Below, piece by piece: positions 31,391-51,029 of a stretch of DNA of 64,000 nt. This stretch comes from Christiangramia portivictoriae DSM 23547 (GTDB taxonomy: Bacteria; Bacteroidota; Bacteroidia; Flavobacteriales; Flavobacteriaceae). Location of the stretch: NCBI RefSeq assembly GCF_000423045.1, contig NZ_AUHF01000001.1:434001-498000 (forward strand). The letters are read 5' to 3'. The notes under the pieces are model-generated. The model did not search any database and was not told the DNA's origin. It saw nothing but the letters and a program-made list of their open reading frames with translations. The first letter of the stretch is position 1; each line of letters opens with the position of its first letter. The translations under genes were made by a program, and so were the position numbers.

Positions 31391-32872
31391 ATGAATTCTA
31401 AGGTTAAAATGATCGCGCTCGTTGCCGGGCCATTACTATTTGTTATCCTGCAGCTCTTAGGCCGACCAGATTCTATGCCGGCAGGTGCTTTCGACGTGCT
31501 TTGTATTACTCTATGGATGGCTGTTTGGTGGGTTTCAGAAGCTATTCCTATTGCGGTAACGGCATTACTGCCTATCATTCTCTTTCCATTGACTGGAGCG
31601 GTAAGTATAGATGCTACTACTGCGGCTTTTGGTCATAAATATGTGTTTTTATATTTGGGAGGTTTTATTCTGGCAGTCGCAATAGAAAAATGGGATCTGC
31701 ATAGAAGAATCGCCCTGAGTATCATTAACTTCATAGGTGCAGATGTTAAGATGATCATCCTGGGATTTATGGCTGCGACCGCTTTTCTTTCCATGTGGAT
31801 AAGCAATACCGCGACTTCGGTCATGATGTTACCTATTGGCACCGCAATTATTAGTCAGTTACAGGATAACCCGGCCAGCAAGGAGAATGAAAATGCTATA
31901 TTTGGTAAGGCGTTGATGCTGGCCATAGCCTATAGCGCTTCCATTGGTGGAGTTGCGACATTGATTGGAACTCCTCCCAATCTCGTGTTTGCCGGGATCG
32001 TGGAAGAAATTTATGGCATTGAGATTAGTTTCACGAAATGGATCGTTCTGGGTTTACCGGTGTCGGTTGCACTGTTGCTTATTTGCTGGAAATATTTAAC
32101 TACCAGAGCCTTCAGGTTTACACAGTCGGAATTTCCGGGAGGGAAGGCAGAAATTAAGCGTCTGAAAATGGAACTTGGCGGGATGAGTCTTCAGGAGAAA
32201 AGAGTTCTGGTGGTTTTTACAATAACCGCCTTTTGCTGGATTAGTAGAAGTTATCTTATCCAGCCAGTTTTACCTTTTATAGATGATACGATTATAGCGA
32301 TGATTGCAGCTGTGGCTCTCTTCCTGATCCCGGCTGGAAAAAAAAACAGGAAACTGGTTACCTGGGAGGAGGCTGTTAAAATTCCCTGGGGAATTATTTT
32401 ATTGTTCGGTGGAGGTATGGCACTTGCGAAAGGTTTTGGAGAAAGTGGCCTTGCGGTTTGGATTGGAGAGCAGTTAAAGAACCTAGAAAACCTGCCGCTT
32501 CTATTGTTAGTGGTTATATTAATAGCAGCAGTAAACTTTTTGACCGAAGTAACTTCCAACCTAGCTACCACTGCCATGTTACTGCCAATACTTGCCTCGA
32601 TGGCCCTGGCTCTGGATCTGCACCCGTATTTTTTGATGGTAGGGGCAACCCTTGCGGCCTCCTGTGCATTCATGCTGCCAGTGGCAACTCCGCCTAATGC
32701 AGTTGTTTTTGGATCTGGTTACCTCAGGATTCCAGATATGATAAAAACAGGTATTTGGATGAATATCGTGAGTATCCTGTTACTAAGCCTGATCGTCTAT
32801 TATTTATTACCGTACTTATGGGATTTCGATCCCGAAGTGATTCCGAAGAAATTCTTAAAAGCGGAAGATTAA
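31391..32872 (+). CDS. SLC13/DASS-family sodium-dependent anion symporter
   Basis: A 493-residue inner-membrane transporter with about eleven segments. The two substrate/Na+ motifs are visible: SNTATSVMMLPIG near residue 140 and TSNLATTAMLLPI near residue 395 (SNT-type motifs), together with IGTPPN and ATPPNAVVFG. It probably takes up dicarboxylates (succinate, malate) or a related anion. The ATG at 31391 is preferred over an in-frame TTG nine bases earlier. The stop codon overlaps the end of the convergent AraC regulator gene by four bases. Confidence 0.93.
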   Translation: MNSKVKMIALVAGPLLFVILQLLGRPDSMPAGAFDVLCITLWMAVWWVSEAIPIAVTALLPIILFPLTGAVSIDATTAAFGHKYVFLYLGGFILAVAIEKWDLHRRIALSIINFIGADVKMIILGFMAATAFLSMWISNTATSVMMLPIGTAIISQLQDNPASKENENAIFGKALMLAIAYSASIGGVATLIGTPPNLVFAGIVEEIYGIEISFTKWIVLGLPVSVALLLICWKYLTTRAFRFTQSEFPGGKAEIKRLKMELGGMSLQEKRVLVVFTITAFCWISRSYLIQPVLPFIDDTIIAMIAAVALFLIPAGKKNRKLVTWEEAVKIPWGIILLFGGGMALAKGFGESGLAVWIGEQLKNLENLPLLLLVVILIAAVNFLTEVTSNLATTAMLLPILASMALALDLHPYFLMVGATLAASCAFMLPVATPPNAVVFGSGYLRIPDMIKTGIWMNIVSILLLSLIVYYLLPYLWDFDPEVIPKKFLKAED

Positions 32873-33909
32873 TTTTCCTCGAATTCTTCTTCTTTGATAC
32901 TGGCTTTTGTTTGCAGGAAGTACTTAGGGCTAACTCCATACTTTTCTTTAAAAATCTTCGAAAAATAACTGCGGTTATTTAGTCCAATGGAAGTAACAAT
33001 TTCTGAAATATTCTTTTCAGAAAGTTTCAGCATTTCCTTGGCAGCCTCCAGTTTAATGTGCTGCATATATTTGTTTACAGTAAGATCATAAACATATTTA
33101 AAGCCTTCCTGAAGTTTATTGACATTAGTTCCAGCCTCTTTCGCCAGGGTCTCTACGGAAAGATTTGTACTAAGATCGCCCTGTATTCTTTTGGCAACAT
33201 AATTCACTTTTTCAATATCAGACTTTCTCAGGATTTTAGGCAAATTCTCGCCGTTCTCGTCATCCTGGTACTGGTCTATCTGTATGGTAAGCATTTCAAA
33301 AGCTTTGCCTTCAAGAAACAGATTGCGAAGAAATCCAGTGAAATCTTTTGTATTAATCTCCTCCATTAAGTCTGCCGACTTTATACTATAATTTCCCTGG
33401 TAAAAGAATTGTTTTTTTGAAACCGCATCTTTGAACAGTTCTTTCAGAGTAGGATCGAGATCTTTAAAATCATAATTGGAGCGATGCGCAAATACAGATC
33501 TAATGATTTCAAGGCTTGATACATGTGTTTTTACATCTTTCTTAAAGTAAAGAATATGGCCATCGTAACCACTGCTGCTCACTACAATATTCTGGTAGGT
33601 ATCTATGGTGTGTTCCTCAGAGCTGTGTTGAAAGCAATGGCTAACAGTACCTTCTGAACAAAAAATAAACTTTAAAGGGTGAACAGTGTTTAAAGAAAAA
33701 TGAATTTCAACATCCTGTGAGAATGTACAATCATAAGTGATATACCCCATGCCGGAGTCAAAACTGATCCCTCGAATAATGCCTTCACCAAATTTAGACG
33801 GGATTTCGATAAAAAGTTCGCCACTACGATTTCGTACATCTGCTTCCAGCGACTGCGCAATGTTTTGAACAATTTCATTCACTGGTAGCGTTTGAACATC
33901 AATTCTCAT
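32869..33909 (-). CDS. AraC-family transcriptional regulator
   Basis: A 346-residue regulator. The C-terminal ~100 residues are the double helix-turn-helix AraC domain (about 240-335; LSVETLAKEAGTNVNKLQEGFKYVYDLTVNKYMQHIKLEAAKEML and SIGLNNRSYFSKIFKEKYGVSPKYF). The N-terminal part is a beta-rich sensor region of unknown ligand. Flavobacteria use such proteins for nutrient control. Its target is not evident; neighbours on either side (SLC13 transporter and the arsenosugar locus) are candidates. Confidence 0.9.
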   Translation of the reverse strand: MRIDVQTLPVNEIVQNIAQSLEADVRNRSGELFIEIPSKFGEGIIRGISFDSGMGYITYDCTFSQDVEIHFSLNTVHPLKFIFCSEGTVSHCFQHSSEEHTIDTYQNIVVSSSGYDGHILYFKKDVKTHVSSLEIIRSVFAHRSNYDFKDLDPTLKELFKDAVSKKQFFYQGNYSIKSADLMEEINTKDFTGFLRNLFLEGKAFEMLTIQIDQYQDDENGENLPKILRKSDIEKVNYVAKRIQGDLSTNLSVETLAKEAGTNVNKLQEGFKYVYDLTVNKYMQHIKLEAAKEMLKLSEKNISEIVTSIGLNNRSYFSKIFKEKYGVSPKYFLQTKASIKEEEFEEN

Positions 33910-34203
33910 AAAATGATACTTATTTTTTCGCTTAATAAGTTAAGCTTTATTTAATGATAAATCTTAAAATCTACATTGGTAAAATTAAAGATTGTGTGAA
34001 AAAAATTAAGAATTAAGATTATAGAAATTATGATTTGAGCTAATGGTTCTGCGAAAAACGTTAGTGTTTAAGGCGTCTTTGGTGAAAAATCACCATTAAC
34101 TCCAATTTCGCAAGCTAGGATTCAAATCGAAAATCTATGTTAAAAATTTAAGGCATATCGGTTTCACTAAGAATTTCCGTTATTTTTCAGTAAAACTATA
34201 ATT
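33910..34203. other. Intergenic region with no gene seen
   Basis: AT-rich 294 bases between the AraC gene (transcribed away) and the small membrane-protein gene. It contains a 6-bp hairpin TGGTGA-AAAA-TCACCA at 34080-34095. No convincing promoter box, ORF or RNA gene was found. It would hold the upstream regulatory sites of both flanking genes. Confidence 0.5.
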
Positions 34204-34380
34204 ATGAATAAGGATAAAGACAGATCATCACCGGTTCCAAAGGAAGATCGTGACAGTGAACAAAAAGTAAATCAATCTACAGAAACCAGGGTTCAGAACT
34301 CCGGTTCCAAACTTTGGATAGTCATTGCGATCATCGCAGTTTTTCTACTCATTATTCTTGCCATTACCGGAGTCTTATAA
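34204..34380 (+). CDS. Small single-pass membrane protein, 58 residues
   Basis: A complete frame from ATG (34204) to TAA. The first 36 residues are highly polar and charged (NKDKDRSSPVPKEDRDSEQK), the rest is one membrane segment (about 37-57; LWIVIAIIAVFLLIILAITG). Orientation is likely N-in from the charges. I do not recognise a family. It lies 64 bases upstream of the CMD-family gene of the arsenosugar locus and may share its transcript. Short length and lack of homology information limit certainty. Confidence 0.55.
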   Translation: MNKDKDRSSPVPKEDRDSEQKVNQSTETRVQNSGSKLWIVIAIIAVFLLIILAITGVL

Positions 34381-34444
34381 TTAAAAACTGTAGCTTCGTT
34401 TATTACGTAATTATATATAACAACGCATACAAGAGATTAGATAG

Positions 34445-34780
34445 ATGGCTAAAAATTATTATGACCCGGCAGACCTTAGAAAATTTGGAGAAATTACTGA
34501 ATGGAGTGAGGAACTGGGAAGCAAGTTTTTTGATTATTATGGTAAGGTTTTCGAGGAAGGAGCACTTTCTGCGCGCGAAAAATCTTTAATCGCCCTTGCT
34601 GTGGCCCATGTTGTAAAGTGTCCTTATTGTATAGACGCTTACACAAGAGATGGACTGCAACGCGGCATTACCAAAGAGGAGATGATGGAGGCTGTCCATG
34701 CCGGAGCTGCCATAGAAAGTGGAGCTACGCTTGTGCACGGAGTGCAAATGATGAACAAATACAAAAAGCTAAGTATGTAA
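34445..34780 (+). CDS. Carboxymuconolactone decarboxylase-family protein, arsenosugar-locus type (TIGR04169-like)
   Basis: A 111-residue AhpD-like protein with redox motif CPYCIDAYTRDG (CxxC plus His-less variant) near residue 59. The family is found beside ArsS-type radical SAM genes and is annotated as arsenosugar biosynthesis-associated peroxidase-like. It likely handles thiol-bound reductive steps. First conserved gene of the locus; 44 bases before arsS. Confidence 0.87.
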   Translation: MAKNYYDPADLRKFGEITEWSEELGSKFFDYYGKVFEEGALSAREKSLIALAVAHVVKCPYCIDAYTRDGLQRGITKEEMMEAVHAGAAIESGATLVHGVQMMNKYKKLSM

Positions 34781-34824
34781 GTTTTCTGTGAACTGCAGAA
34801 CTAAACACACATAGAAAACACTAT

Positions 34825-35880
34825 ATGATCACAAAATCCCTGAAGGCAAGAAAAGACGATCTTTCAAGTCCCAAGAACCAGTTAGAATTTTTAAGCGAAG
34901 GCATATTTGAAGAAGGCGAGCTACCTTATTTTAAGGATAAGATCGCAGAAACTCATCAGCTGCCGTTCAAGCCTAAAAAACTTGAAATCCTGCAGTTAAA
35001 TCTTGGTTACATGTGTAATCAGGTTTGTTCACATTGTCATGTAGATGCCGGTCCAGATCGTAAAGAGATCATGACGGTAGAAACCATGAAACAATGCCTG
35101 GAAGTCATAAAAAATACCGGGGCTCATACCCTGGATCTTACCGGTGGAGCTCCAGAGATGAACCCGAACTTCAGGTGGTTCGTTGAGGAGGCGGCAAAAG
35201 CCGGGATCAGGGATTTTATCGTGAGATCCAATCTAACGATCATTCTGGCAAATAAAAAGTATCACGATCTTCCGGAGTTTTTTAAAAAGCATAATGTTCA
35301 TGTAGTTTCATCCCTTCCATTCTACAAGAGAGAAAAAACCGATAAGCAGAGAGGTAGCGGCGTCTTTGACAAATCGATCAAGGCATTGCAAATGCTGAAT
35401 GCGGTGGGTTACGCGCAGGAAGGTACCGGTTTGAAGCTGGACCTGGTCTATAATCCTTCCGGTGCATTTTTACCTACAGACCAACAGGCAATGGAACAGG
35501 ATTTTAAAAAGGCCCTGAAAGAAGATTTCAATATTGATTTTGGCAATTTGTTTGCCATTACCAACCTGCCAATAAGCCGCTTCCTGGAATATCTAATTGC
35601 TTCTGAAAATTATGAGGATTATATGTATGCACTGGTTGAAGCTTACAATCCGGCTGCTGTTGAAAATGTAATGTGTACCAACACTATTTCCATAAGTTGG
35701 GATGGATGGTTGTATGATTGCGATTTTAACCAGATGCTGGAATTAAAAGTGAATTCCAAAGTTCAGCATATTAGCGAATACAACGAGGATATTCTGAATG
35801 ATCGGAATATCATCATTTCACAGCATTGCTATGGTTGTACCGCAGGCGCGGGAAGTAGTTGCCAGGGAACAGTAACTTAA
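34825..35880 (+). CDS. arsS: Arsenosugar biosynthesis radical SAM protein ArsS
   Basis: Radical SAM enzyme reported in other organisms to attach the 5'-deoxyadenosyl group to dimethylarsenite, giving 5'-deoxy-5'-dimethylarsinoyl-adenosine. Cys64, Cys68 and Cys71 (GYMCNQVCSHC) bind the [4Fe-4S] cluster. The C-terminal Cys-rich segment has Cys335, Cys338 and Cys346 (CYGCTAGAGSSC), the region where some homologues carry selenocysteine (the older name was rSAM/selenodomain). Here all are Cys. Length 351 residues. rhodanese gene follows after one base. Confidence 0.93.
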   Translation: MITKSLKARKDDLSSPKNQLEFLSEGIFEEGELPYFKDKIAETHQLPFKPKKLEILQLNLGYMCNQVCSHCHVDAGPDRKEIMTVETMKQCLEVIKNTGAHTLDLTGGAPEMNPNFRWFVEEAAKAGIRDFIVRSNLTIILANKKYHDLPEFFKKHNVHVVSSLPFYKREKTDKQRGSGVFDKSIKALQMLNAVGYAQEGTGLKLDLVYNPSGAFLPTDQQAMEQDFKKALKEDFNIDFGNLFAITNLPISRFLEYLIASENYEDYMYALVEAYNPAAVENVMCTNTISISWDGWLYDCDFNQMLELKVNSKVQHISEYNEDILNDRNIIISQHCYGCTAGAGSSCQGTVT

Positions 35881-35881
35881 A

Positions 35882-36379
35882 ATGAAAGTACAGGGGTTCG
35901 TATTCAGTTTTATCATGGTTTTGGCGACTTCTGTTTACAGCCAGAGTTCGCTGGATGAACTGTTGAAAAAATACAACTCCGGGGATGTTTCATACACTTC
36001 TGTAGAGCAATTGCGCATGGATCAATTAAATGATGAGGTGATCATCCTGGATGCCAGAGAACGTGAAGAATACCGCACCAGCCACCTTCGTAATTCCCGT
36101 TTTATAGGCTATGATCATGTAAACTTAAGCCTGCTGGATACGGTCTCCAGAGATAAAAAGATCGTGGTTTACTGCTCCATAGGCATCCGGTCTGAGAAGA
36201 TCGCGCATAAAATTCAGGCTTTGGGATTTAAAGAAGTGAGAAATCTATACGGCGGTATCTTTGAATGGAAAAACGCCGGATTTCCAGTGTTTGATCAGGA
36301 AGAGATGGAAACCGAAAAAATTCATACTTTCTCAAAACACTGGTCAAAATATCTTAAAAATGGAGAAAAAATTTACTAA
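35882..36379 (+). CDS. Exported rhodanese-like protein of the arsenosugar locus
   Basis: A 165-residue protein; signal peptide likely ends near residue 20 (VYSQ). One rhodanese domain (about 45-145; IILDAREREEYRTSHL, VYCSIGIRSEKIAHKI) with active-site Cys98. It would move sulfur in the periplasm or reduce/thiolate an oxyanion such as arsenate. The next gene starts one base after its stop. Rhodanese genes occur in several such loci as I recall. Confidence 0.85.
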   Translation: MKVQGFVFSFIMVLATSVYSQSSLDELLKKYNSGDVSYTSVEQLRMDQLNDEVIILDAREREEYRTSHLRNSRFIGYDHVNLSLLDTVSRDKKIVVYCSIGIRSEKIAHKIQALGFKEVRNLYGGIFEWKNAGFPVFDQEEMETEKIHTFSKHWSKYLKNGEKIY

Positions 36380-36994
36380 GTGTCTAAAGAAGATCTTTTA
36401 ATCATATTTACGAAAAACCCAGTCCTAGGCAAGGTGAAAACCCGTCTCGCAAAGGGAATTGGTGATAACAAAGCCCTGGAAGTATATCAGTTTTTGCTGA
36501 AGCATACGAAGAAAGTAACCGAACAGCTTGATGTAGATAAGCAGGTTTATTACGCATGGAATATTGGTGAAAACGACATTTGGGAAGACCACTATTTTCA
36601 GAAAAGATTGCAGGTGGAAGGAGATCTGGGAGCGAAAATGGAAGCGGCATTTAAAGCTGGATTTTCTGAAGGTTACAGGAAAATTGTAATCATTGGAAGC
36701 GATCTTTATGACCTAGATGAATCAGATCTGGCAGCGGCCTTTACAGAACTTGAAACTCATGATCATGTGATTGGACCGGCAGAAGATGGTGGATACTATT
36801 TATTAGGAATGAAATCATTAAATTCGGCTTTATTCATCAATAAAGCCTGGAGTACTTCGAGTGTATTTGAGCAAAGTCTCCAGGATATGCAGGCTGGAAC
36901 TTATAAAGTGCTGCCTCTTAAAAATGATATAGATACGGAGGAAGACATCAGGAATATTCCGGTATTTCAAAAAATTATTAATAATGACAGATAG
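36380..36994 (+). CDS. Arsenosugar biosynthesis glycosyltransferase/nucleotidyltransferase-like protein, TIGR04282 type
   Basis: A 204-residue GT-A-fold protein, the transferase 1 of ArsS loci. The N-terminal LLIIFTKNPVLGKVKTRLAKGIG is the nucleotide-binding signature shared with CofC/MobA-like proteins; IGSDLYDL and GPAEDGGYYLLGM are further landmarks. GTG start at 36380 directly abuts the rhodanese stop. Its end overlaps the purine nucleoside phosphorylase start by 11 bases. Role inferred: transfer of a sugar or glycerol group onto the arsenic nucleoside product. Confidence 0.88.
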   Translation: MSKEDLLIIFTKNPVLGKVKTRLAKGIGDNKALEVYQFLLKHTKKVTEQLDVDKQVYYAWNIGENDIWEDHYFQKRLQVEGDLGAKMEAAFKAGFSEGYRKIVIIGSDLYDLDESDLAAAFTELETHDHVIGPAEDGGYYLLGMKSLNSALFINKAWSTSSVFEQSLQDMQAGTYKVLPLKNDIDTEEDIRNIPVFQKIINNDR

Positions 36995-37796
36995 AATAAA
37001 CGAATCGGTTGATTACTTGAAATCCAAAGGATTCGGTGAACCGGAAGTTGGGATCATCTTGGGTACAGGATTAGGGAAACTACTGGAAGATGTTGAAATT
37101 GAAGCCACTGCGAGTTATAACCATATACCCTATTTTCCAACGGCCACAGTAGAGTTTCACAAGGGAAAATTAATCTTTGGAACCCTGGCAGGAAAAAAAG
37201 TGGTCATCATGCAAGGAAGATTTCATTTGTATGAAGGCTATAGTCTTTTTGATGTTACTTTTCCGGTAAGGGTCATGAAACGTTTGGGAATGAAACGCTT
37301 GCTGGTCTCAAATGCGTCTGGAGCGATTAACCTGGATTATGGTAAAGGTGAGTTAATGCTTATCGATGATCATATCAACCTTCAGGGCGGTTCCCCGCTG
37401 GCGTTCCATGGTGTTGAACATCTGGGAGAACGTTTTGTGGACATGAGCGAACCCTATGACAGGTCCATGAACGAGCAGTTCGAAAGCACAGCTCAGGAAT
37501 TAGGGATCACATTGCACAAAGGGGTGTATGCATCGGTACTTGGTCCACAGCTGGAAACCCGTGCTGAATACCGGTATCTAAAGATCATTGGTGCAGATGC
37601 CGTTGGAATGAGTACAGTGCCGGAAGTGATCGTTGCCAATCATTTGGGAATCCCTGTTTCAGCAATTTCGGTAATCACAGATAAAGGGGATCCAGACAAT
37701 CTCGAAAAAGTAGATATTCAGGAAATTCTGGCGATGGCTGCCAAGGCAGAGCCAGATATGGTCAAATTATTTAAAGAGTTACTAAAGAAATTATAG
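36984..37796 (+). CDS. Purine nucleoside phosphorylase (trimeric PNP/MTAP family) in the arsenosugar operon
   Basis: A 270-residue phosphorylase. Family landmarks: LGTGLG (phosphate loop), His81 in GRFHLYEGY, Glu191 in GPQLETRAE, and GADAVGMSTVPEVI. At the base-recognition position where human PNP has Asn243 this protein has Asp233 (VITDKGDPD), as MTA phosphorylase does; in human PNP an Asp here shifts specificity toward 6-aminopurines. Adenine release from the ArsS product is therefore plausible. Glu191 is PNP-like, so the site is a mixture of both subfamilies. Start overlaps the previous gene by 11 bases, the next ATG follows immediately. Confidence 0.92.
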   Translation: MTDRINESVDYLKSKGFGEPEVGIILGTGLGKLLEDVEIEATASYNHIPYFPTATVEFHKGKLIFGTLAGKKVVIMQGRFHLYEGYSLFDVTFPVRVMKRLGMKRLLVSNASGAINLDYGKGELMLIDDHINLQGGSPLAFHGVEHLGERFVDMSEPYDRSMNEQFESTAQELGITLHKGVYASVLGPQLETRAEYRYLKIIGADAVGMSTVPEVIVANHLGIPVSAISVITDKGDPDNLEKVDIQEILAMAAKAEPDMVKLFKELLKKL

Positions 37797-38765
37797 ATGA
37801 GTTATTTAGAGATCACTAAAGATGTATATCGTGAAGCTGCGCTTACGCCAGATGTTGGATTATGCTGCACCACAAACCCAATTTGGGAACTTCCGGGATT
37901 AAAGATTCCGAAGATCATGCAGGAGATGAATTACGGTTGTGGTTCCACAGTACATGCCCGGGATCTGACAAATAATCCGCGTACACTTTACGTAGGAGTT
38001 GGCGGCGGAATGGAACTTTTACAGTTCGCTTACTTTTCCAGAATGAAATCTGGAGTGGTTGGAGTAGACGTGGTAGATGAAATGCTGGAAGCTTCCCGTA
38101 AGAACTTCGTGGAGGCTGAGGCACAGAATCCATGGTTTAAGTCTGAATTTGTAGATCTTAGAAAAGGAGATGCTACAGCTTTACCAGTAGAAGATAACTC
38201 TATAGATGTCGCCGCACAGAACTGTCTCTTCAATATTTTCAAAACTGAAGAGCTTACTCAGGCTCTAAATGAGATGTATCGGGTGCTGAAGCCACACGGT
38301 AGGCTTGTGATGAGCGATCCAACCTGTGAGCAGGAAATGAACGATGAGCTTAGAAATGATGAGCGACTAAGGGCACTTTGTCTTTCAGGAAGCCTGAGCA
38401 TCAAAGACTATGTAAAAGCACTTACCGATGCTGGTTTTGGAACTATTGAGATCAGGGCCAGAAAGCCTTATAGAATTCTGGATCCCAAAAATTATCCTAC
38501 AGAGGAATTGATCTATATCGAATCTATTGAAGTAGCAGCAATTAAAGATCCAATGCCAGAGGACGGGCCATGCATCTTTACTGGTAAAGCTGCGATCTAT
38601 TATGGAGACGAAGATCATTTTGATGATCAGAAAGGACATATTTTACTAAAGAACCAGCCCATTGCAATTTGTGATAAAACTGCAGGCGCGCTGGCAGATC
38701 TTGGAAGAGATGATATTTACATTAGCGAGTCCACCTGGCATTACGATGGTGGTGGGTGCTGCTAA
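37797..38765 (+). CDS. arsM: Arsenite S-adenosylmethionine methyltransferase ArsM, arsenosugar-locus type
   Basis: A 322-residue SAM-dependent methyltransferase that converts As(III) to methylated forms in the cytoplasm. SAM-binding motif LYVGVGGGMELLQF near residues 64-77. Arsenic-binding cysteines equivalent to algal ArsM positions are Cys48 (YGCGS), Cys143 (QNCLFN) and Cys195 (RALCLSGS); Cys23-Cys24 near the N-terminus and a GGGCC C-terminus add more thiols. The first methylation steps of the arsenosugar route are the natural assignment. Confidence 0.92.
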   Translation: MSYLEITKDVYREAALTPDVGLCCTTNPIWELPGLKIPKIMQEMNYGCGSTVHARDLTNNPRTLYVGVGGGMELLQFAYFSRMKSGVVGVDVVDEMLEASRKNFVEAEAQNPWFKSEFVDLRKGDATALPVEDNSIDVAAQNCLFNIFKTEELTQALNEMYRVLKPHGRLVMSDPTCEQEMNDELRNDERLRALCLSGSLSIKDYVKALTDAGFGTIEIRARKPYRILDPKNYPTEELIYIESIEVAAIKDPMPEDGPCIFTGKAAIYYGDEDHFDDQKGHILLKNQPIAICDKTAGALADLGRDDIYISESTWHYDGGGCC

Positions 38766-38779
38766 TAAATTTTAATATT

Positions 38780-39568
38780 ATGAAGAAAGTATTTTTAAGT
38801 TTCCTGATCCTGGTTTCAGGGGCATTCATTTGTCAATCCTGTAACCTTATTTCAAGTGCAGGGTTTAATAGTAAAGGGCTGCCCACTCCAGACGCTGCAA
38901 ATACTTCTGCAGCTGCCGAGCAAAAAGTAGATCATTCTAGTTGGGATAAACTTCTGAAAAAGCATGTATCTAGCGACGGAATGGTAGATTATAAGGGTTT
39001 CCAGAAAGACCGTGCTGCACTTGACGATTATCTGAAGATGCTATCTTCCATGCAGCCAGATGATTCCTGGAATCGCGACCAGCTTCTGGCATATTATATC
39101 AATCTTTATAATGCGTATACGGTGGATCTAATCCTTCGGAATTATCCAGTGAAGAGTATCAAAGATATTTCCGGAGCATGGACAAAGGAGTTCGTTAGAA
39201 TTGGGGACAAGGAAATCTCACTCGGTGCTATTGAAAACAGCTTGTTGCGAAAAATGGATGAGCCCAGAATTCACTTTGCGATCAATTGCGCATCGATAAG
39301 CTGCCCCAAACTTATGAATGAAGCGTACACTAGCGAGAATATCGAGAAGCAGCTGGAGAAAGCTACGAATGAATTTATCAATTCAGATAAGAATGACATT
39401 TCGGCTTCCCAGCTGAAGCTTTCGTCGATCTTTGACTGGTATAAGAAAGATTTTACTGAGGATGGTTCTTTGACCGAGTACGTTAACCAATATTCAGAAG
39501 TGAAGATCAACTCCAATGCCCGGGTAGAGTATAAGAATTACGACTGGAACCTGAACGAAGCAAAATAA
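38780..39568 (+). CDS. DUF547 lipoprotein of the arsenosugar locus
   Basis: A 262-residue exported protein from the ATG at 38780; the frame extends upstream to a GTG but that would overlap arsM. Signal peptide ends at Cys21 (CQSCNLIS; Cys18 is the alternative). The DUF547 domain is seen from about residue 70 (YYINLYNAYTVDLIL, ISLGAIENSLLRKM, CASISCPKL). Function unknown; DUF547 genes recur in loci with ArsS, which suggests a transport or modification role. Confidence 0.85.
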   Translation: MKKVFLSFLILVSGAFICQSCNLISSAGFNSKGLPTPDAANTSAAAEQKVDHSSWDKLLKKHVSSDGMVDYKGFQKDRAALDDYLKMLSSMQPDDSWNRDQLLAYYINLYNAYTVDLILRNYPVKSIKDISGAWTKEFVRIGDKEISLGAIENSLLRKMDEPRIHFAINCASISCPKLMNEAYTSENIEKQLEKATNEFINSDKNDISASQLKLSSIFDWYKKDFTEDGSLTEYVNQYSEVKINSNARVEYKNYDWNLNEAK

Positions 39569-39573
39569 ATTCT

Positions 39574-40260
39574 GTGATAAGTATCATTATCCCGGTCTAT
39601 AATGAAGAGAAGCAGCTTCCGGCTTTGCTGGAATACCTGGAAACTGCTTCTTCTTTTCATATTCGGGAAATACTTGTTGTCGATGGAGGAAGTACAGATG
39701 GAACTTCACGTATTGCCAGTGAACACCCTAAGGTTACTTATCATTTATCTGAAAAAGGCCGGGCAGTTCAAATGAATTTTGGTGCTGGAAAAGCCATTGG
39801 CGAACTACTATATTTCCTGCATGCCGATAGTTTTCCACCAGAAAATTTTGATAAACTAATCATGAAAGCTGTCGAAAATGGTCATGACTGTGGTTGTTTT
39901 CAAATGCGTTTCGATAAGAACCACTGGTGGCTGAATTTAATGGGGTTTTTCACGAAATTCAATCATCTTTCATGTAGGGGAGGAGACCAATCACTTTTTG
40001 TAACCAGCAAACTTTTCCATAGGCTTCAGGGATTTGATGAAAGTTATACGGTTTATGAAGACAACGAATTTATCAAGCGTCTTTATAAGCATGCTTCTTT
40101 TACGGTGATCAAGAAATGGCTTACGACCTCTGCACGTTTATACGATCGCATGGGAGTTTGGAAAACACAGAAATTATTTCTCGAAATCTACTGGAAAAGA
40201 AGATTTGGCGCTACGGCTGAAGATCTACGCTCTCACTATTACAAGCGGGTTAATTCCTGA
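39574..40260 (+). CDS. Arsenosugar biosynthesis glycosyltransferase, TIGR04283 type
   Basis: A 228-residue GT2-type transferase, the transferase 2 of ArsS loci. N-terminal SIIIPVYNEEKQLPALL and the nucleotide site VVDGGSTDGT are standard; LLYFLHADSFPP is the DxD-like region. GTG start at 39574, five bases after the DUF547 stop. Its end overlaps the end of the convergent GH113-like gene by 11 bases. It could couple the dimethylarsinoyl-ribose to glycerol-type aglycones, by inference from the pathway. Confidence 0.9.
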   Translation: MISIIIPVYNEEKQLPALLEYLETASSFHIREILVVDGGSTDGTSRIASEHPKVTYHLSEKGRAVQMNFGAGKAIGELLYFLHADSFPPENFDKLIMKAVENGHDCGCFQMRFDKNHWWLNLMGFFTKFNHLSCRGGDQSLFVTSKLFHRLQGFDESYTVYEDNEFIKRLYKHASFTVIKKWLTTSARLYDRMGVWKTQKLFLEIYWKRRFGATAEDLRSHYYKRVNS

Positions 40261-41278
40261 AACTGCTATAAAACTCTTTTATCACCTTTTCCGCAGGTTT
40301 GTTTTGAGGAGTGAACCTGGAATTTTCGAGTCCGCCACTACCGGTTTCCTGATGCCATTTCCAGAGAAAACCGCCGGCAAACCAGTCTTTGGACCATATT
40401 TGATCAAAAATCACACGATACGCATTTGCCTGTAAATTAAAATTGAGACCGGGATGTTCCCTTTCAGAATTCCAGGGAGTTTTCAAAGTGAAATCAATAC
40501 TTCTATACCCAAATTCTGTAAAGATGATTTGCTTGCTGAATTTTTCAGATACGGTTTCAAGTGAATTAAGATGAGGTTCCCAGCCTTTTTTTATCTGATC
40601 AGTTTCTGGTGAAGCTTCTGTGCTAATAGGAAAATAAGCGTCCACGCCTATATAATCCAGCTCATTCCATATTGTAGTTTGATCAAATTTATCCCAGTTT
40701 TCAGCATAGGTGATCTGCCCGCTGTATATCGCTCTTACTTCGGAAATGAGGCGATTCCAGAAAGCTGGCCTGTTGCTTACAAAATTGAAAAGTTCGGTTC
40801 CAATACAGAGAAGTTCCACATCAAGTTCTTCTGAAATTTCAGCATATAGAAGAATGAATTCAGCATAAGAATCTTCGAATTGTTTCCAGTCTACTTCAGT
40901 TTCAAATTGCAAATCTCCGGTAAAGCCGCCATTCCTGATCCAGATCTGAGGTTTGACCATGATCTTTAAATTGCGCTCTCTTAATTTTGAGACAGTATGT
41001 TCAATACCTTCCTGTCGTTCCCCAAACCACTGTCTTTTTATGTTAAATCTTAGCTGGGGATCTTCCTGGTCGGGTAGAAAAGCGAATGGCATCAGGGCAA
41101 TGTAATTCGCTTCAGTTTCAGCTACATAATCAGCTTCGGTGTCAAGTATAGAGTCCCGGGAAGCCACGAGACTAATTCCATTCATTTTTGATTCCGGCAA
41201 TTTTGTTTGACAGGATGCTGTAAGTAAACCGACCATTAAAAAGATCTGAAATATGATAAGTGCCGATTTCCACTGCAT
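40250..41278 (-). CDS. GH113-like glycoside hydrolase lipoprotein
   Basis: A 342-residue lipoprotein; signal peptide ends at Cys23 (LTASCQTK). TIM-barrel hydrolase of the GH113 type: general acid/base Glu162 in CIGTEL and nucleophile Glu255 in IIFTEFGYRS. GH113 contains beta-mannanases; the substrate here is not clear. Convergent with the last arsenosugar gene and overlapping it by 11 bases. It is not next to any SusC/SusD genes. Confidence 0.85.
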   Translation of the reverse strand: MQWKSALIIFQIFLMVGLLTASCQTKLPESKMNGISLVASRDSILDTEADYVAETEANYIALMPFAFLPDQEDPQLRFNIKRQWFGERQEGIEHTVSKLRERNLKIMVKPQIWIRNGGFTGDLQFETEVDWKQFEDSYAEFILLYAEISEELDVELLCIGTELFNFVSNRPAFWNRLISEVRAIYSGQITYAENWDKFDQTTIWNELDYIGVDAYFPISTEASPETDQIKKGWEPHLNSLETVSEKFSKQIIFTEFGYRSIDFTLKTPWNSEREHPGLNFNLQANAYRVIFDQIWSKDWFAGGFLWKWHQETGSGGLENSRFTPQNKPAEKVIKEFYSSFRN

Positions 41279-41373: not shown

Positions 41374-42660
41374 ATGGAGCATATCGTTATCATAGGAAAT
41401 GGAATCGCTGGTATCACCGCTGCCCGGCATATTAGAAAAGCTTCAGACTGCAGGATCACCGTAATTTCCGGGGAATCAGACTATTTTTTCTCGCGTACCG
41501 CCTTGATGTATGTCTATATGGGACATATGAAGTGGGATCATTTGAAGCCTTATGAAGACTGGTTCTGGGAAAAAAATCGAATAGAACTCATAAATGCCTG
41601 GGTTGATCATATAGATTTTAAGAATAAAGAGCTTGGTTTTTCTTCCAGGGAAACATTGCGCTACGACAAACTTATTCTGGCCACCGGTTCCTTGCCGAAT
41701 CGTTTTGGCTGGCCGGGAGAAGATCTTGATGGCGTACAGGGAATGGTCACTAAGCAGGACCTGGAAAAGCTGGAGGAAAGAACTTCTGGTATTCATCACG
41801 CTGTGGTTATTGGCGGCGGACTCATTGGTGTTGAGCTCGCAGAAATGCTGCATACGCGCAAAATTCCGGTCACTTTGCTGGTGAGGGAAAATGGCTTTTG
41901 GAGCAGTGTATTACCGCCGCAGGATGCAAAGATGATCTCTGAGCATATCCTTGCGCATGGAATAGACCTGAGGCATGAAACAGAGCTTGAAGAGGTTCTT
42001 GGAGATGAACAAGGCAGGGTTAGGGCAATAAGGACTACATCTGGCGAAGAGATCCCCTGCGAATTTGTGGGTCTTTGCGCGGGTGTAAGACCAAACATAA
42101 AATTTCTGGAGTCCCTGGATATTGAAACCCACAAAGGCATTCTGGTCAACGAATTTCTGGAGACCAGTGTTCCCGATGTTTATGCCATTGGAGACTGTGC
42201 CCAGCAGAAAAAAGCCATAGGACTACGAAAACCTGTGGAGGCAGTTTGGTATACCGGTAGGATCATGGGCGAAACTGTAGCGCAGACGGTTACTGGAACC
42301 AGAACTTCCTACCAACCTGGAAACTGGTTCAATTCAGCCAAATTTTTTGATATCGAATATCAAACATATGGCTGGGTTTTTAATAAACCGGGTCTAAATG
42401 AGCAGCATTTTCACTGGCAGCATGAAAGTGGAGAAAAGGCGATTACCATCGCTTTCGACACTGAAACTGGAAAGTTTAAGGGCATTAATACCTTCGGAAT
42501 AAGAATGCGACAGAAAGTTTTTGATAGATGGCTAAATGAAGAGAAGACGATCACGCATGTCCTGTCAAACCTAAAAGCAGCTAATTTCGATCCAGAATTT
42601 TACGAGCGTCATGAAGCTGAAATCTTTAAATACTTTACCAAAAATTTACAAAATACTTGA
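41374..42660 (+). CDS. NAD(P)/FAD-dependent oxidoreductase
   Basis: A 428-residue two-dinucleotide-domain flavoprotein. FAD-binding GNGIAGITAARHIRK at the N-terminus, NAD(P)-binding IGGGLIGVELAEML near residue 150, and the second FAD motif VYAIGDCAQ near residue 270. No redox-active Cys pair is seen, so it is not a thioredoxin-reductase type; similar to rubredoxin/ferredoxin reductases or NirB-like FAD parts. It overlaps the membrane Fe-S gene by four bases and so probably feeds electrons to it. Confidence 0.88.
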   Translation: MEHIVIIGNGIAGITAARHIRKASDCRITVISGESDYFFSRTALMYVYMGHMKWDHLKPYEDWFWEKNRIELINAWVDHIDFKNKELGFSSRETLRYDKLILATGSLPNRFGWPGEDLDGVQGMVTKQDLEKLEERTSGIHHAVVIGGGLIGVELAEMLHTRKIPVTLLVRENGFWSSVLPPQDAKMISEHILAHGIDLRHETELEEVLGDEQGRVRAIRTTSGEEIPCEFVGLCAGVRPNIKFLESLDIETHKGILVNEFLETSVPDVYAIGDCAQQKKAIGLRKPVEAVWYTGRIMGETVAQTVTGTRTSYQPGNWFNSAKFFDIEYQTYGWVFNKPGLNEQHFHWQHESGEKAITIAFDTETGKFKGINTFGIRMRQKVFDRWLNEEKTITHVLSNLKAANFDPEFYERHEAEIFKYFTKNLQNT

Positions 42661-44255
42661 TGAGTAGAATAGAACAAAACATGTCTGTAACCGGGGAGGC
42701 TGCAGCAACTCTAAATACAGGACAGAAATTGGCAAGTTTCCTCGGGATGTCTGGTCTAATCATCCTTTGTCTGGCTGCCTTCAATCTTAATTTTCCCAAT
42801 AAAGTTTTGTGGTTAAGTATCGCTTTGGGATCCATCATTGCTGGAATTTGTTGGTTCGCCCAGGCAACATATTCCGGTAGGCCTGCGGGTATCAAGAACG
42901 ACGGTGTCTGGTTTAAAAGCATGACCAGTCGCGGCTACCTGGCTTATCTTACCGGTCTTGGTTTGACCGGGTTTTATATTTTGCTCTATTTCTACCCCGA
43001 GTATCTTGGTTTAAGAGCACAAGGAGATAACGTAGGATTGATCGCTCTTTTTGATCCTTTAAGTTATCTGCTTAGTGGTAATCCAGCAAGCCAGTGGTTT
43101 GTGTATGGAACTTTATATACGATCGCTATCCTGGCTTTCGGAGTAAAGTTCTTATGGAAATACAGGCATAATCGCTATGAAAAACTGAGAACTTACAGTG
43201 TCATGTTCTTTCAGCTAGCTTTCGCATTCCTTATTCCCGAATTCATGTCCAGGCTTAACGATGATGGCATGAACCTGCCTTACTACGACCTAAAGAACAT
43301 CTGGCCACTTAATTATTACAATTTCGAGCAATACAGGATAGATGGTTTTCTTTCTTCCGGAGATATAGGTCTTGCCCTGCTGATCTTTGGGGTAGTTTCA
43401 ATTTTTGTGATTACGCCTATACTAACCTATAAATATGGGAAAAGATGGTACTGCAGTTGGGTATGCGGTTGTGGCGGCCTCGCTGAAACTGCCGGTGATC
43501 CTTATCGCCAGCTTTCAGATAAAAGTCTTTTTGCCTGGAAAGTTGAACGATGGGTGGTACATAGCGTGCTGGTATTCGTGGTTTTGATGACAACAGCGGT
43601 CGTTTACAGCTACCTTGGTTACGATTCATCAAAATACTGGCTTACAAGAGATGTTTTCCTTATTGGGGTTGGGGTTTTTCTAAGCCTCTTGTTTGCAGCG
43701 ATCTGGTATTTCAAAAGACAAGAATTACAAAAAGATGCCCGTTATGGAGCGATAGGCTACCTGGTAATCATCCTAGGATTGATCGCTTTTCATTACTTCA
43801 GCGGGCAGAACTTATTTTTGTTCAATGCCGAAAATTTGCGCCAGGCCTACGGATTCCTGATAGGGTCTATTTTTAGCGGAGTCATAGGTACCGGTTTTTA
43901 TCCAATTTTCGGGAACAGAGTCTGGTGTCGGTTTGGTTGTCCTATGGCAGCTATTTTGGGAATGCAGCAACGCTTATTTTCAAAATTCAGAATTACAACC
44001 AACGGAGGGCAGTGTATTTCGTGCGGAAATTGCTCAACCTATTGTGAAATGGGGATCGATGTACGTGCCTATGCGCAAAAAGGGGAGAACATTGTTCGAT
44101 CCAGTTGTGTTGGCTGCGGAATTTGCTCTGCCGTTTGTCCCAGAGGTGTTCTCAAACTTGAAAATGGTTCTACCAATAACCGAATTACTACTGAAAATGG
44201 GGTTGTTGGAGAAAATGTAGATCTTTTGGATCTTCTGAAGCAGAAAAGCCTATAA
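42657..44255 (+). CDS. Membrane-bound polyferredoxin (NapH/CcoG-like)
   Basis: A 532-residue inner-membrane electron-transfer protein with about eight membrane segments. Cys-rich loops YCSWVCGCGG and VWCRFGCPM resemble the Fer4_5 motifs of NapH/CcoG. Near the C-terminus two [4Fe-4S] ferredoxin motifs follow: CISCGNCSTYC and CVGCGICSAVCP. It starts by ATGA overlap with the flavoprotein gene. The likely partners are the flavoprotein and an unknown quinone or periplasmic acceptor. Not a typical CcoG; assignment to NapH-type is by motif only. Confidence 0.85.
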   Translation: MMSRIEQNMSVTGEAAATLNTGQKLASFLGMSGLIILCLAAFNLNFPNKVLWLSIALGSIIAGICWFAQATYSGRPAGIKNDGVWFKSMTSRGYLAYLTGLGLTGFYILLYFYPEYLGLRAQGDNVGLIALFDPLSYLLSGNPASQWFVYGTLYTIAILAFGVKFLWKYRHNRYEKLRTYSVMFFQLAFAFLIPEFMSRLNDDGMNLPYYDLKNIWPLNYYNFEQYRIDGFLSSGDIGLALLIFGVVSIFVITPILTYKYGKRWYCSWVCGCGGLAETAGDPYRQLSDKSLFAWKVERWVVHSVLVFVVLMTTAVVYSYLGYDSSKYWLTRDVFLIGVGVFLSLLFAAIWYFKRQELQKDARYGAIGYLVIILGLIAFHYFSGQNLFLFNAENLRQAYGFLIGSIFSGVIGTGFYPIFGNRVWCRFGCPMAAILGMQQRLFSKFRITTNGGQCISCGNCSTYCEMGIDVRAYAQKGENIVRSSCVGCGICSAVCPRGVLKLENGSTNNRITTENGVVGENVDLLDLLKQKSL

Positions 44256-44310
44256 TTTGTAAGGAGTTCTCCTATTTTCGCACTTCTTAAGCTGAACTGA
44301 ATAATTACGC

Positions 44311-45003
44311 ATGCATTCTTCCATCAAAGTAATCATTCCAGCCTATAACGAAGCCGATTCAATAGGTTTAGTGATCAATGACATTCCTGACATCGTGGAG
44401 GAAGTGATCGTGGTTAGTAACAATTCTACAGATGCTACGGAAGCTAATGCTGCCGCTGCAGGTGCAACCGTACTTCGGGAGCCTCGAAAAGGCTATGGCT
44501 ATGCCTGCTTAAAAGGAATGCAATACATCTCTGAACAGTCGGCTAAACCGGATATTATTGTCTTTCTGGATGGCGATTATTCCGATTATCCTTCAGAATT
44601 GGTCAGGATCATTCAGCCAATCATCGAAGAAGACAAAGATTTTGTAGTAGGAGCAAGGGTAAAGGAATGGCGTGAACCTGGTTCCATGACCTTTCCGCAG
44701 ATCTTTGGAAACTGGCTGGCAACAAGTTTGATGAGACTGTTCTTCAGCTCCACATTTACAGATCTTGGACCATTCCGGGCGATCAAATATCCAAAATTGC
44801 TTCAGCTGGAAATGGAAGACAAAACCTATGGCTGGACGGTAGAAATGCAGTTAAAGGCGCTTCGGAAAAATTTAAAATATGCTGAAATCCCGGTACATTA
44901 TCGAAACAGGATCGGGGTATCCAAAGTTTCAGGAACACTTAAAGGTGCTATCTTTGCAGGTGTGAAAATTTTGGGATGGATCTTCAAATACAGTTTTAAA
45001 TGA
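44311..45003 (+). CDS. Family 2 glycosyltransferase (DPM1-like)
   Basis: A 230-residue GT-A enzyme. IIPAYNEADSIGLV at the N-terminus and LDGDYSDYP (the DxD motif) near residue 90 fit polyprenol-phosphate sugar synthases. No C-terminal membrane segments. It overlaps the next glycosyltransferase by four bases. A role in making a lipid-linked sugar for the downstream GT-C enzyme is inferred. Confidence 0.88.
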   Translation: MHSSIKVIIPAYNEADSIGLVINDIPDIVEEVIVVSNNSTDATEANAAAAGATVLREPRKGYGYACLKGMQYISEQSAKPDIIVFLDGDYSDYPSELVRIIQPIIEEDKDFVVGARVKEWREPGSMTFPQIFGNWLATSLMRLFFSSTFTDLGPFRAIKYPKLLQLEMEDKTYGWTVEMQLKALRKNLKYAEIPVHYRNRIGVSKVSGTLKGAIFAGVKILGWIFKYSFK

Positions 45004-46475
45004 TAGACCTGCTGGTGATCATACTTTACACACTCGCGTTGCTGGTTATCTTTATCTACAGCCTTTCGCAGCTACATCTTTTGATCAATTATTTCAAGGC
45101 TTTAAAATCAAATGATACTGCGAGTAAATTTAATTTTGAAGGCAGTGATGCCTATCCATATGTAACCATACAATTACCACTTTATAATGAAGCCTATGTG
45201 GTGGAGCGTTTGCTGAAGAATATTTCAAAGGTCGACTATCCCAGGGAGAAGCTGGAAATTCAGGTACTTGATGATTCTACTGATGATTCTGTACATATTA
45301 CTTCCTTGCTGGTACAGCAGCTCAGGCAGGAAGGATTGGATATTCAGCATATTCGACGTAAAACACGTACTGGTTTTAAGGCCGGCGCCCTGAAAGAAGG
45401 TCTGGAGATCGCCCGCGGGGAATATATTGCTGTATTCGATTCAGATTTTGTACCGGGCAAAAACTGGCTGAAACAAACATTGCCTTATTTCAAGAATCCG
45501 CGTATCGGGGTGGTTCAAACCCGTTGGGGACATCTAAACCGTGATTATTCGTTGCTTACCAGGATACAGGCTTTCGCGCTTGATTTTCACTTTATCATGG
45601 AACAGACCGGAAGAAATTTTGGGCGTAATTTTATCAATTTTAACGGTACGGCGGGAATATGGAGAAAAGAATGCATTCTGGATGCCGGAAACTGGAGTGG
45701 TGATACGCTTACTGAAGATCTGGATCTAAGTTACAGGGCACAGATGAAAAAATGGGAATTCAAATACCTTGAACATGTTGAAACTCCGGCCGAATTGCCT
45801 GTGGTAATCAGTGCCGCACGGAGTCAGCAGTTTCGATGGAACAAAGGTGCTGCAGAGAATTTCAGGAAAAACTACGGTAAACTTTTAAGAGATAGATCTG
45901 CATCCTTTAGTACAAAATTTCATGGATTTTTTCATCTTTTGAACTCCAGTATGTTTTTGATCGTATTGTTTCTTGCGGTGCTTAGTCTGCCGGTACTTTA
46001 TATCAAGAATTCCAATCCGGCTTTCGACTGGTATTTCAATCTGGTCGCAGTTTTTGCCTTGAGTACACTCATCTTTTTTCTTTGTTACTATGTGGCCTGG
46101 TCAAGAATTCATGGAAAGGGTTTCAGATCATTTTTAAGGTTTGTAGGAATGTTTCTAACCTTTTTTTCCATAGCCATGGGATTTTCAGTTCATAATTCCC
46201 TGGCTGTGCTGGAAGGTCATCTCGGGAAACGTTCAGAATTTATAAGAACACCAAAGTTCAACATAGCCGAAGGTGGAGGTAAATGGAAAGGGAACAAATA
46301 CCTGTCTGGTAAGTTTTCCAGAAATGTGATTATTGAAGGCTTGCTATTCCTGTATTTTGGATTTGCCATTTATAGTGCTTTCAGACTTCAGGAGTTCGGA
46401 CTCATCATTTTCCACCTGATGTTGTTCGCCGGTTTTGGTTTTGTTTTCCTGAAAAGCTTAAAGTCTGAAGTTTAA
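45000..46475 (+). CDS. Processive family 2 glycosyltransferase (cellulose synthase-like)
   Basis: A 491-residue inner-membrane enzyme. N-terminal membrane segment (about 3-25), GT-A domain with LDDSTDDS (about 87), FDSDF, TEDLDLSYR and QFRWNKG (the Q-x-x-R-W motif), then about four membrane segments. It resembles the cellulose synthase/mannan synthase family; the polymer or glycolipid made is unknown. Cotranscribed with the DPM1-like gene and the GT-C gene. Confidence 0.9.
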   Translation: MIDLLVIILYTLALLVIFIYSLSQLHLLINYFKALKSNDTASKFNFEGSDAYPYVTIQLPLYNEAYVVERLLKNISKVDYPREKLEIQVLDDSTDDSVHITSLLVQQLRQEGLDIQHIRRKTRTGFKAGALKEGLEIARGEYIAVFDSDFVPGKNWLKQTLPYFKNPRIGVVQTRWGHLNRDYSLLTRIQAFALDFHFIMEQTGRNFGRNFINFNGTAGIWRKECILDAGNWSGDTLTEDLDLSYRAQMKKWEFKYLEHVETPAELPVVISAARSQQFRWNKGAAENFRKNYGKLLRDRSASFSTKFHGFFHLLNSSMFLIVLFLAVLSLPVLYIKNSNPAFDWYFNLVAVFALSTLIFFLCYYVAWSRIHGKGFRSFLRFVGMFLTFFSIAMGFSVHNSLAVLEGHLGKRSEFIRTPKFNIAEGGGKWKGNKYLSGKFSRNVIIEGLLFLYFGFAIYSAFRLQEFGLIIFHLMLFAGFGFVFLKSLKSEV

Positions 46476-46503
46476 TTAACTTAGCCGCAAATCCACATTT
46501 TTA

Positions 46504-50976: not shown

Positions 50977-51029
50977 GGCTAATTGAATTGTTTAGTTAGT
51001 TGTTTGTTAGTTGATTAAAGGTATAAATT

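Follow-up and report, generated by a model that had tools for sequence, protein, structure and literature searches.

An arsenosugar-type gene cluster in a Christiangramia-like flavobacterium, with a backbone that also occurs without the arsenic genes

The window, by which we mean the whole 64,000-nucleotide stretch of the Christiangramia portivictoriae DSM 23547 genome analysed here, carries a genuine gene cluster of the arsenosugar type, from a Christiangramia-like flavobacterium, with eight plus-strand open reading frames (ORFs) called at 34445–40260, a CMD-family gene (cmd) first and a TIGR04283 gene last. Our reading, to which we give slightly better than even odds (about 0.5), is that the locus is a merger: an arsenic part, made up of cmd-arsS and arsM, would sit inside a backbone, and in relatives without ArsS the route of the purine nucleoside phosphorylase (PNP) and the TIGR04282 and TIGR04283 proteins would take an arsenic-free nucleoside. 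The backbone is rhodanese, TIGR04282, PNP, DUF547 and TIGR04283, followed by an FAD reductase, a NapH-like protein and glycosyltransferases. Because these genes stand without the arsenic genes in ArsS-negative runs, arsenic specificity is apparent only for cmd, arsS and arsM. What the data show is the gene content, the separability of the parts, the clade of the PNP and the fold similarity of the TIGR04282 protein. To our knowledge, no enzymes have so far been assigned to the arsenosugar steps after ArsS. In the locus, PNP is a candidate for removing adenine, TIGR04282 for activation and TIGR04283 for transfer, and the relatives that have the same run with no arsenic enzymes inside it are a natural control.

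The evidence that carries the merger comes from these relatives. We used a phylum sample of 296 genomes and a family sample of 219 genomes, one per genus, in which ArsS is present in 121 and 163 genomes, respectively, and we read eleven ArsS-negative loci, nine from the family sample and two (G142 and G154) from the phylum sample. Rhodanese, TIGR04282, PNP, DUF547 and TIGR04283 occur together in four of these genomes (G312, G397, G469, G488), and the same backbone occurs in part in the seven others. The initial annotation, which had taken the eight genes as one arsenosugar set, is not supported on this point, since these five stand without cmd, arsS and arsM. TIGR04282 and TIGR04283 are present in 11/11 loci, with PNP between them in seven; rhodanese is present in nine, and was not seen in G182, where the fetched stretch ends at TIGR04282, or in G468. 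DUF547 lies inside the run in 9/11 loci, and FAD and NapH are nearby in 6/11. None of the eleven runs holds cmd, arsS or arsM; a weak CMD-family match (34%) in G182 lies outside the run. The order TIGR04282-PNP-(DUF547)-TIGR04283 is found in G182, G312, G330, G397, G419, G469 and G488, and the order TIGR04282-DUF547-TIGR04283 in G445 and G468. G142 and G154, both also ArsM-negative, have rhodanese, TIGR04282, a fatty-acid hydroxylase, DUF547, TIGR04283, FAD, NapH and glycosyltransferases in this order. All eleven genomes have TIGR04283 above its cut-off, and the four scanned with profile models (G142, G397, G488, G312) have both TIGR04282 and TIGR04283 above theirs. The name of TIGR04283 implies that it is restricted to ArsS-bearing genomes; we found it without ArsS in 9 of 152 TIGR04283-positive genomes of the family sample, all over the cut-off, and in 62 of 169 of the phylum sample at the thresholds used (157 of the 169 being over the cut-off).

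A tree built from TIGR04282, PNP and TIGR04283 together (45 loci, rooted at the midpoint) places the seven ArsS-negative loci that have all three genes with one ArsS-positive row at a support of 97/95, and the end branches of this eight-row group are long, at 0.29 to 0.61 changes per column; were the arsenic genes already lost when this group began to radiate, the run would have persisted for a long time in their absence. Among columns at least 95% conserved in ArsS-positive rows, none is changed in all ArsS-negative rows, for PNP (68 vs 7 rows), TIGR04282 (80 vs 11) or TIGR04283 (45 vs 11), the comparison having omitted the L045 PNP, the L244–L252 rows of TIGR04282 and TIGR04283, and rows sharing under 38% identity with the window protein or of 190 aa or less. 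We would expect this lack of a separating conserved column from proteins with a common substrate class, and regard it as the chief evidence against a role in arsenosugars only. The ratio of nonsynonymous to synonymous differences (pN/pS) of ArsS-negative PNPs against their nearest ArsS-positive rows is 0.11–0.19, with saturated synonymous sites, and, as ArsS-negative rows are mostly saturated in this way, dN/dS is a rough sign of constraint only. Since some relatives retain much of the run in the absence of the arsenic enzymes, it seems that the arsenic pathway is plugged into a more ancient pathway of sugar handling. In a more specific and tentative form, ArsM and ArsS would feed an arsenic nucleoside into an older phosphorylase, nucleotidyltransferase and glycosyltransferase route, which without ArsS would make a ribosyl or 5-deoxyribosyl conjugate, perhaps a lipid, from a common nucleoside such as 5'-deoxyadenosine. 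Should the backbone make a product of its own, the arsenosugar names of such proteins would be misleading, and estimates of arsenosugar potential that count TIGR04282 or TIGR04283 would be too high.

The successive gaps from the CMD gene to the TIGR04283 gene are 44, 1, 0, −11, 0, 14 and 5 bases, and order, strand and spacing of the ORFs agree with the eight same-strand genes, gaps of 0 to 44 bases and one 11-base overlap annotated initially. The CMD/AhpD-like protein (34445–34780) has a CPYC motif and scores 199.5 bits against TIGR04169 (cut-off 120). ArsS (34825–35880), a radical SAM enzyme with TIGR04167 and DUF3641 matches, scores 442.1 bits against TIGR04167 (cut-off 300); its cysteines C64, C68 and C71 (CX3CX2C), together with the C-terminal cysteines C284, C299, C335, C338 and C346, are invariant in 18 sequences. 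The closest named relatives are Christiangramia, with ArsS identities of 98% in L076 and 91% in L077. The rhodanese (35882–36379) contains a CSIGIRS loop and what looks by eye like a signal peptide, and matches NF045521 at 197 bits (cut-off 145). It is followed by the TIGR04282/DUF2064 protein (36380–36994, GTG start), the class I, trimeric-type PNP (36984–37796), arsenosugar-type ArsM (37797–38765; 569.4 bits against NF038099, cut-off 400), the DUF547 protein (38780–39568), by eye a putative lipoprotein, and the TIGR04283 protein of glycosyltransferase family GT2 (39574–40260, GTG start; 227.5 bits, cut-off 182). NCBIfam cut-offs are passed by seven of the eight proteins, so that the ArsS and ArsM assignments made earlier stand, and DUF547 passes that of Pfam with 100 vs 27 bits; its predicted fold gave no match in the PDB at E values up to 0.001. 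Five of the eight families (TIGR04167, TIGR04169, TIGR04282, TIGR04283, NF038099) already bear arsenosugar-biosynthesis names in NCBIfam, so the core of the finding is already known to curators. In the literature, we found no description of this gene order, most subscription journals lying outside the coverage of the search. A known core is extended and re-partitioned here. Its separability calls for a different understanding of the family names and yields an order of post-ArsS steps that can be tested.

The ArsM-ArsS arsenosugar pathway, in which ArsS was reportedly studied by Cheng et al. in 2021, resembles the window in that both enzymes score above cut-off in one run, with the TIGR04169 partner CMD attached. 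The window differs in adding PNP, the FAD reductase, the NapH-like protein and glycosyltransferases, and most of its run is separable from ArsS. In the route that we propose, ArsM would make dimethylarsenite, and ArsS would add the 5'-deoxyadenosyl group, as reported for its family; arsenic adenosylation by ArsS is cited in the accessible part of PMC12159101. PNP and phosphate would then cleave the ArsS nucleoside to 5-deoxy-5-dimethylarsinoyl-ribose-1-phosphate, which TIGR04282, as a CofC-like nucleotidyltransferase, would couple to a nucleoside triphosphate, and TIGR04283 would transfer the activated ribose to an acceptor, either glycerol or a lipid. CMD may act as a thiol redox partner. In ArsS-negative relatives, PNP, TIGR04282 and TIGR04283 would work in the same way on an arsenic-free nucleoside. 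Every substrate and product after ArsS is one that we infer, as are the roles of CMD, rhodanese, DUF547, FAD and NapH. A similar logic is described in the available portion of PMC12583986 for hopanoid synthesis by HpnH-HpnG, where a radical SAM enzyme adds 5'-deoxyadenosyl and a putative phosphorylase removes adenine, leaving a ribosyl product. Unlike here, the substrate of that system is a hydrocarbon and not arsenic, and the likeness to PNP is at the level of the reaction.

The TIGR04282 protein scores 209 bits against its own model (cut-off 134) and also matches the CofC Pfam model (28.8 vs a threshold of 22), with 37 bits for TIGR03552. In a fold search with its AlphaFold model (mean pLDDT 93.3), 3cgx came first and ranks 2–12 were taken by Rv2983, MM2497, 3-phosphoglycerate guanylyltransferase, an Rv0371c homologue, IspD and KdsB. 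We take Rv2983 and Rv0371c to be nucleotidyltransferases. Invariant or near-invariant residues include K20, R22, G106, D108, DGG 136–138, D183 and D185; Asp pairs of this kind bind metal in nucleotidyltransferases. The fold matches are mostly nucleotidyltransferases, and the predicted fold looks more like these than like glycosyltransferases, although some glycosyltransferases match too. Likeness to the CofC/FbiD guanylyltransferases extends to Rv2983 (TM 0.63) and MM2497 (TM 0.70), whereas the TIGR03552 score is below the CofC cut-off of 105 bits. The initial annotation had the two transferases finish the sugar; half of this is doubtful, since TIGR04282 is nucleotidyltransferase-like in both sequence and predicted fold. 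In one locus (L058:6989-8272), TIGR04283 and TIGR04282 are fused in a single ORF of 427 aa or more, which argues that both act in sequence.

PNP scores 341 bits against PRK08202 (cut-off 218), and 106.8 bits against the MTAP model TIGR01694, below its cut-off of 274.85. It resembles bacterial trimeric PNP in passing TIGR01700 (297.5 bits, cut-off 293.35), and differs in having Asp (D233) at the human N243 position and Ile (I245) at the H257 position, and in its own clade. These positions, presumably equivalent, were matched through known human motifs and the alignment of 123 rows (76 cluster and 47 other; eight of the 76 are second fetches of the same gene, and one of 59 fetched loci, L210, was dropped by the length filter). 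Cluster PNPs, thinned to 35 rows for the tree (82 of 124 rows used), form one clade with a support of 100/99, which includes one ArsS-negative row, from G182, located in the same kind of run. In genus g2, all three ArsS-positive genomes (G084, G218, G289) encode two PNPs, one of the cluster type and another that falls outside the clade. At the human His257 position, Ile or Val is found in 76/76 cluster rows and His in ten rows (L192–L200 and L203, from g2 and g6). Ile or Val here fits a 5'-modified nucleoside, short of proof. As a mark of the cluster, Ile at this position separates the His rows within the window's family and fails across the phylum. Asp at N243 was likewise tried, and rejected, as a sign that a PNP is dedicated to adenine nucleosides, being present in 123/123 rows; according to the accessible text of PMC6128611, Asp there raises catalytic efficiency with adenosine by ~4,000-fold.

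We weighed the merger against three other explanations. On one hand, the run could be a dedicated arsenosugar operon, all eight genes serving arsenosugars only, and the ArsS-negative runs would be relics left by the loss of arsS and arsM, or would use an arsenic nucleoside made elsewhere. The co-occurrence is strong: TIGR04283 and ArsS are both present in 143 of the 219 family genomes and both absent from 47, TIGR04283 is present in 107/121 ArsS-positive genomes of the phylum sample, backbone genes adjoin arsS in distant families (for example, L056, L058, L060, L067 and L072), and the NCBIfam names point the same way. However, ordered runs are kept in eleven ArsS-negative genomes, their PNPs, where present, have low pN/pS (at saturated synonymous sites), and TIGR04283 is common without ArsS in the phylum sample, so that we find this explanation rather doubtful. 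On the other hand, PNP could serve the general salvage of 5'-deoxyadenosine or methylthioadenosine for any radical SAM enzyme and not act on the arsenic nucleoside. Besides the trimeric-type PNP, the genome encodes two PNP_UDP_1 proteins that by eye look DeoD-like and uridine-phosphorylase-like, with no more at E 0.001, and no other separate enzyme of the salvage kind is evident; moreover, Ile, Val or Leu occupies the 5' site in 35 of the 47 PNPs outside the cluster. Yet the gene adjoins arsM and sits between TIGR04282 and TIGR04283, it reaches 107 of the 275 bits of the MTAP cut-off, which is far below, and adjoining activating and transferring enzymes suit synthesis better than salvage, which makes this role improbable. 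Arsenolysis by PNP, which would help to supply ArsM with arsenite by reducing arsenate, as reported for the mammalian enzyme in vitro, is the least likely of all: PNP and arsenate reduction are discussed in the accessible part of the review PMC12608789 and a CPYC-bearing CMD protein lies within the run, but the genome has a separate ars operon and PNP is kept in runs without ArsM.

Several points weigh against the merger of an arsenic part with an older backbone. Seven of the eleven ArsS-negative loci may be one event, and the arsenic genes may have been lost there, including independently, or never gained. A more divergent ArsS would escape the threshold of E 1e-60, the whole-genome ArsM search covered three of the eleven genomes (G142, G154, G182), and some assemblies are weaker (G330 with 320 contigs, G445 at 87% and G468 at 90% completeness), the G330 and G445 loci being short contigs. 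The chemistry of the proposed route is something that we infer. Neither PNP residue is diagnostic, with Ile at the 5' site in 25/47 and Asp at the base site in 47/47 of the other PNPs, and the available part of PMC4308819 describes the bond of His257 to the ligand 5'-OH as not persistent in simulations. PNP is beside arsS in 0/27 loci outside the family (L049–L075). The best fold match of TIGR04282, 3cgx, is titled a nucleotide-diphospho-sugar transferase, and the glycosyltransferases ArnC and GtrB match as well, ranking after the others. Lastly, TIGR04283 is lacking in 20 of the 163 family genomes with ArsS and in 14 of the 121 from the phylum sample, and is hence not needed everywhere ArsS acts, and arsenosugar-type ArsM is missing from 101 of the 121; other enzymes must serve there. 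On the supporting side, this ArsM type occurs in 20/296 genomes of the phylum sample, all 20 ArsS-positive, and of 30 genomes sampled from the window's family, 14 have ArsM and these same 14 have ArsS. More than one ArsS match was found in G286 (C7, C8), G355 and G463; some may be contig pieces.

The run does not end at 40260, as had been annotated, since the FAD reductase, NapH-like protein and glycosyltransferases go on from 41374 to 47862. Between them and TIGR04283 lies a minus-strand GH113-family gene (40250–41278). On the plus strand follow an FAD pyridine nucleotide-disulphide oxidoreductase of the NADH:ferredoxin reductase type (41374–42660; NCBIfam and Pfam), a NapH-like membrane polyferredoxin with two 4Fe-4S motifs near the C-terminus (42657–44255; Pfam, and NCBIfam below cut-off), a GT2 glycosyltransferase of the polyprenyl-phosphate type (gt2b; 44311–45003), a CelA-like GT2 membrane glycosyltransferase (45000–46475) and a polytopic membrane protein, GT-C-like by eye and with no Pfam match (46504–47862). 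In the ArsS-negative L233, the gt2b homologue has sub-threshold matches to models of AglJ and dolichyl-P hexose transferase, and a CelA-like homologue is also found below cut-off; the polytopic protein comes after both genes in the ArsS-negative L233, L234 and L255. The FAD reductase, NapH-like protein and glycosyltransferases are found near arsS or arsM in other families too. FAD, NapH and gt2b lie directly behind PNP in L079 and L091, FAD and NapH behind TIGR04282 in L060 and L067, L072 has FAD and NapH before cmd-arsS and gt2b after, and L058 a weak NapH-like gene (29%) plus gt2b. With positions read by eye, NapH lies at most 20 kb from arsS or arsM in 17 of 41 NapH- and ArsS-positive genomes, of the window's family (G000, G029, G084, G088, G103, G118, G130, G134, G226, G234, G289) and of others (G027, G101, G105 and G144 in f24, G137 in f28, G152 in f34). 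G076 and G111, neither TIGR04283-positive, have rhodanese, DUF547, FAD, NapH and glycosyltransferases with no adjoining TIGR04282, TIGR04283 or PNP, so this part can stand alone. An ArsS-specific electron donor role of FAD-NapH was considered and is weakened by 20 of 61 NapH-positive genomes without ArsS, and by L245 and L246, where the same part has no TIGR04282, TIGR04283 or ArsS beside it.

Neighbourhoods of arsS were compared in 121 loci (40 unnamed, 80 named and the window), with an ArsS ORF obtained in 120. The named loci are the best 80 of 591 matches, all loci were cut at ~10 kb per side and genes were counted at 35% identity or more, so that the counts are lower bounds from a biased set: cmd 110, TIGR04282 82, PNP 70, ArsM 62, rhodanese 59, DUF547 50, TIGR04283 45, a divergent TIGR04282-like protein 29, fatty-acid hydroxylase 26, GH113 22, FAD reductase 21, NapH 16 and gt2b 16. 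PNP adjoins ArsM even where arsS sits elsewhere (G130, G134, G234). The fatty-acid-hydroxylase family protein (PF04116, distantly OlsE-like) is often placed before DUF547 (L086:14116-15000) and is also present in the ArsS-negative runs L233 (6227–7099) and L234, which hints at a lipid product. A SusC-SusD pair lies beside cmd-arsS in 18/121 loci (for example, L095:11121-18734), and an SSF symporter and a calcineurin-like phosphoesterase in 19 loci each, often with the divergent TIGR04282-like protein; these may serve import of an organoarsenical or phosphoester, such as from algae. A PiT-type (PHO4) phosphate transporter is found in nine loci, mostly adjoining arsM (L094:14136-15248, L058:18368-19486), and adjoins arsM in two further arsM loci, the examples listed including L237 and L243.

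Upstream, a divergent AraC-family gene (32869–33909, minus strand; Pfam HTH_18 and HTH_AraC) is a candidate regulator. It is upstream of cmd in four of the 80 named loci (L076–L079), with a 61-aa ORF intervening in L077, and stays there in L078 and L079, where the genes beyond it differ. As an arsenic sensor the AraC protein was set aside, since two of its four Cys columns are conserved in 5/5, which is insufficient. The intergenic motif GTTNTGNGAAAAACGTTA (34046–34063, plus strand) is a candidate operator; it was drawn from the alignment of the window with L076–L078 and is present there by construction. It has one match in the window vs 0.08 expected and is kept in 4/5 shared intergenic regions, and its 11-base core was not found in L079 and occurs once in the unrelated L153. 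A Bacteroidota promoter pattern was not found upstream of cmd. Between the motif and cmd, position 34204, where the run had been annotated to start, is not the CMD start and opens a separate 58-aa ORF (34204–34380, plus strand) with one transmembrane segment; it has no Pfam match, a similar ORF is present in the Christiangramia loci L076 and L077, and no counterpart was seen in L078. The run holds no arsR or arsenite pump, as had been noted, and all five HTH_5 matches of the genome, as well as its one Acr3 match, fall outside the window. Contig 2 of the same genome holds an arsR-DUF6428-ORF-acr3 operon, whose third ORF has no Pfam or NCBIfam match and resembles, by eye, a PTP-type arsenate reductase. 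Further downstream in the window, a polyamine cluster was recognized by eye at 49137–52433, with a deoxyhypusine-synthase-like protein, agmatinase and arginine decarboxylase.

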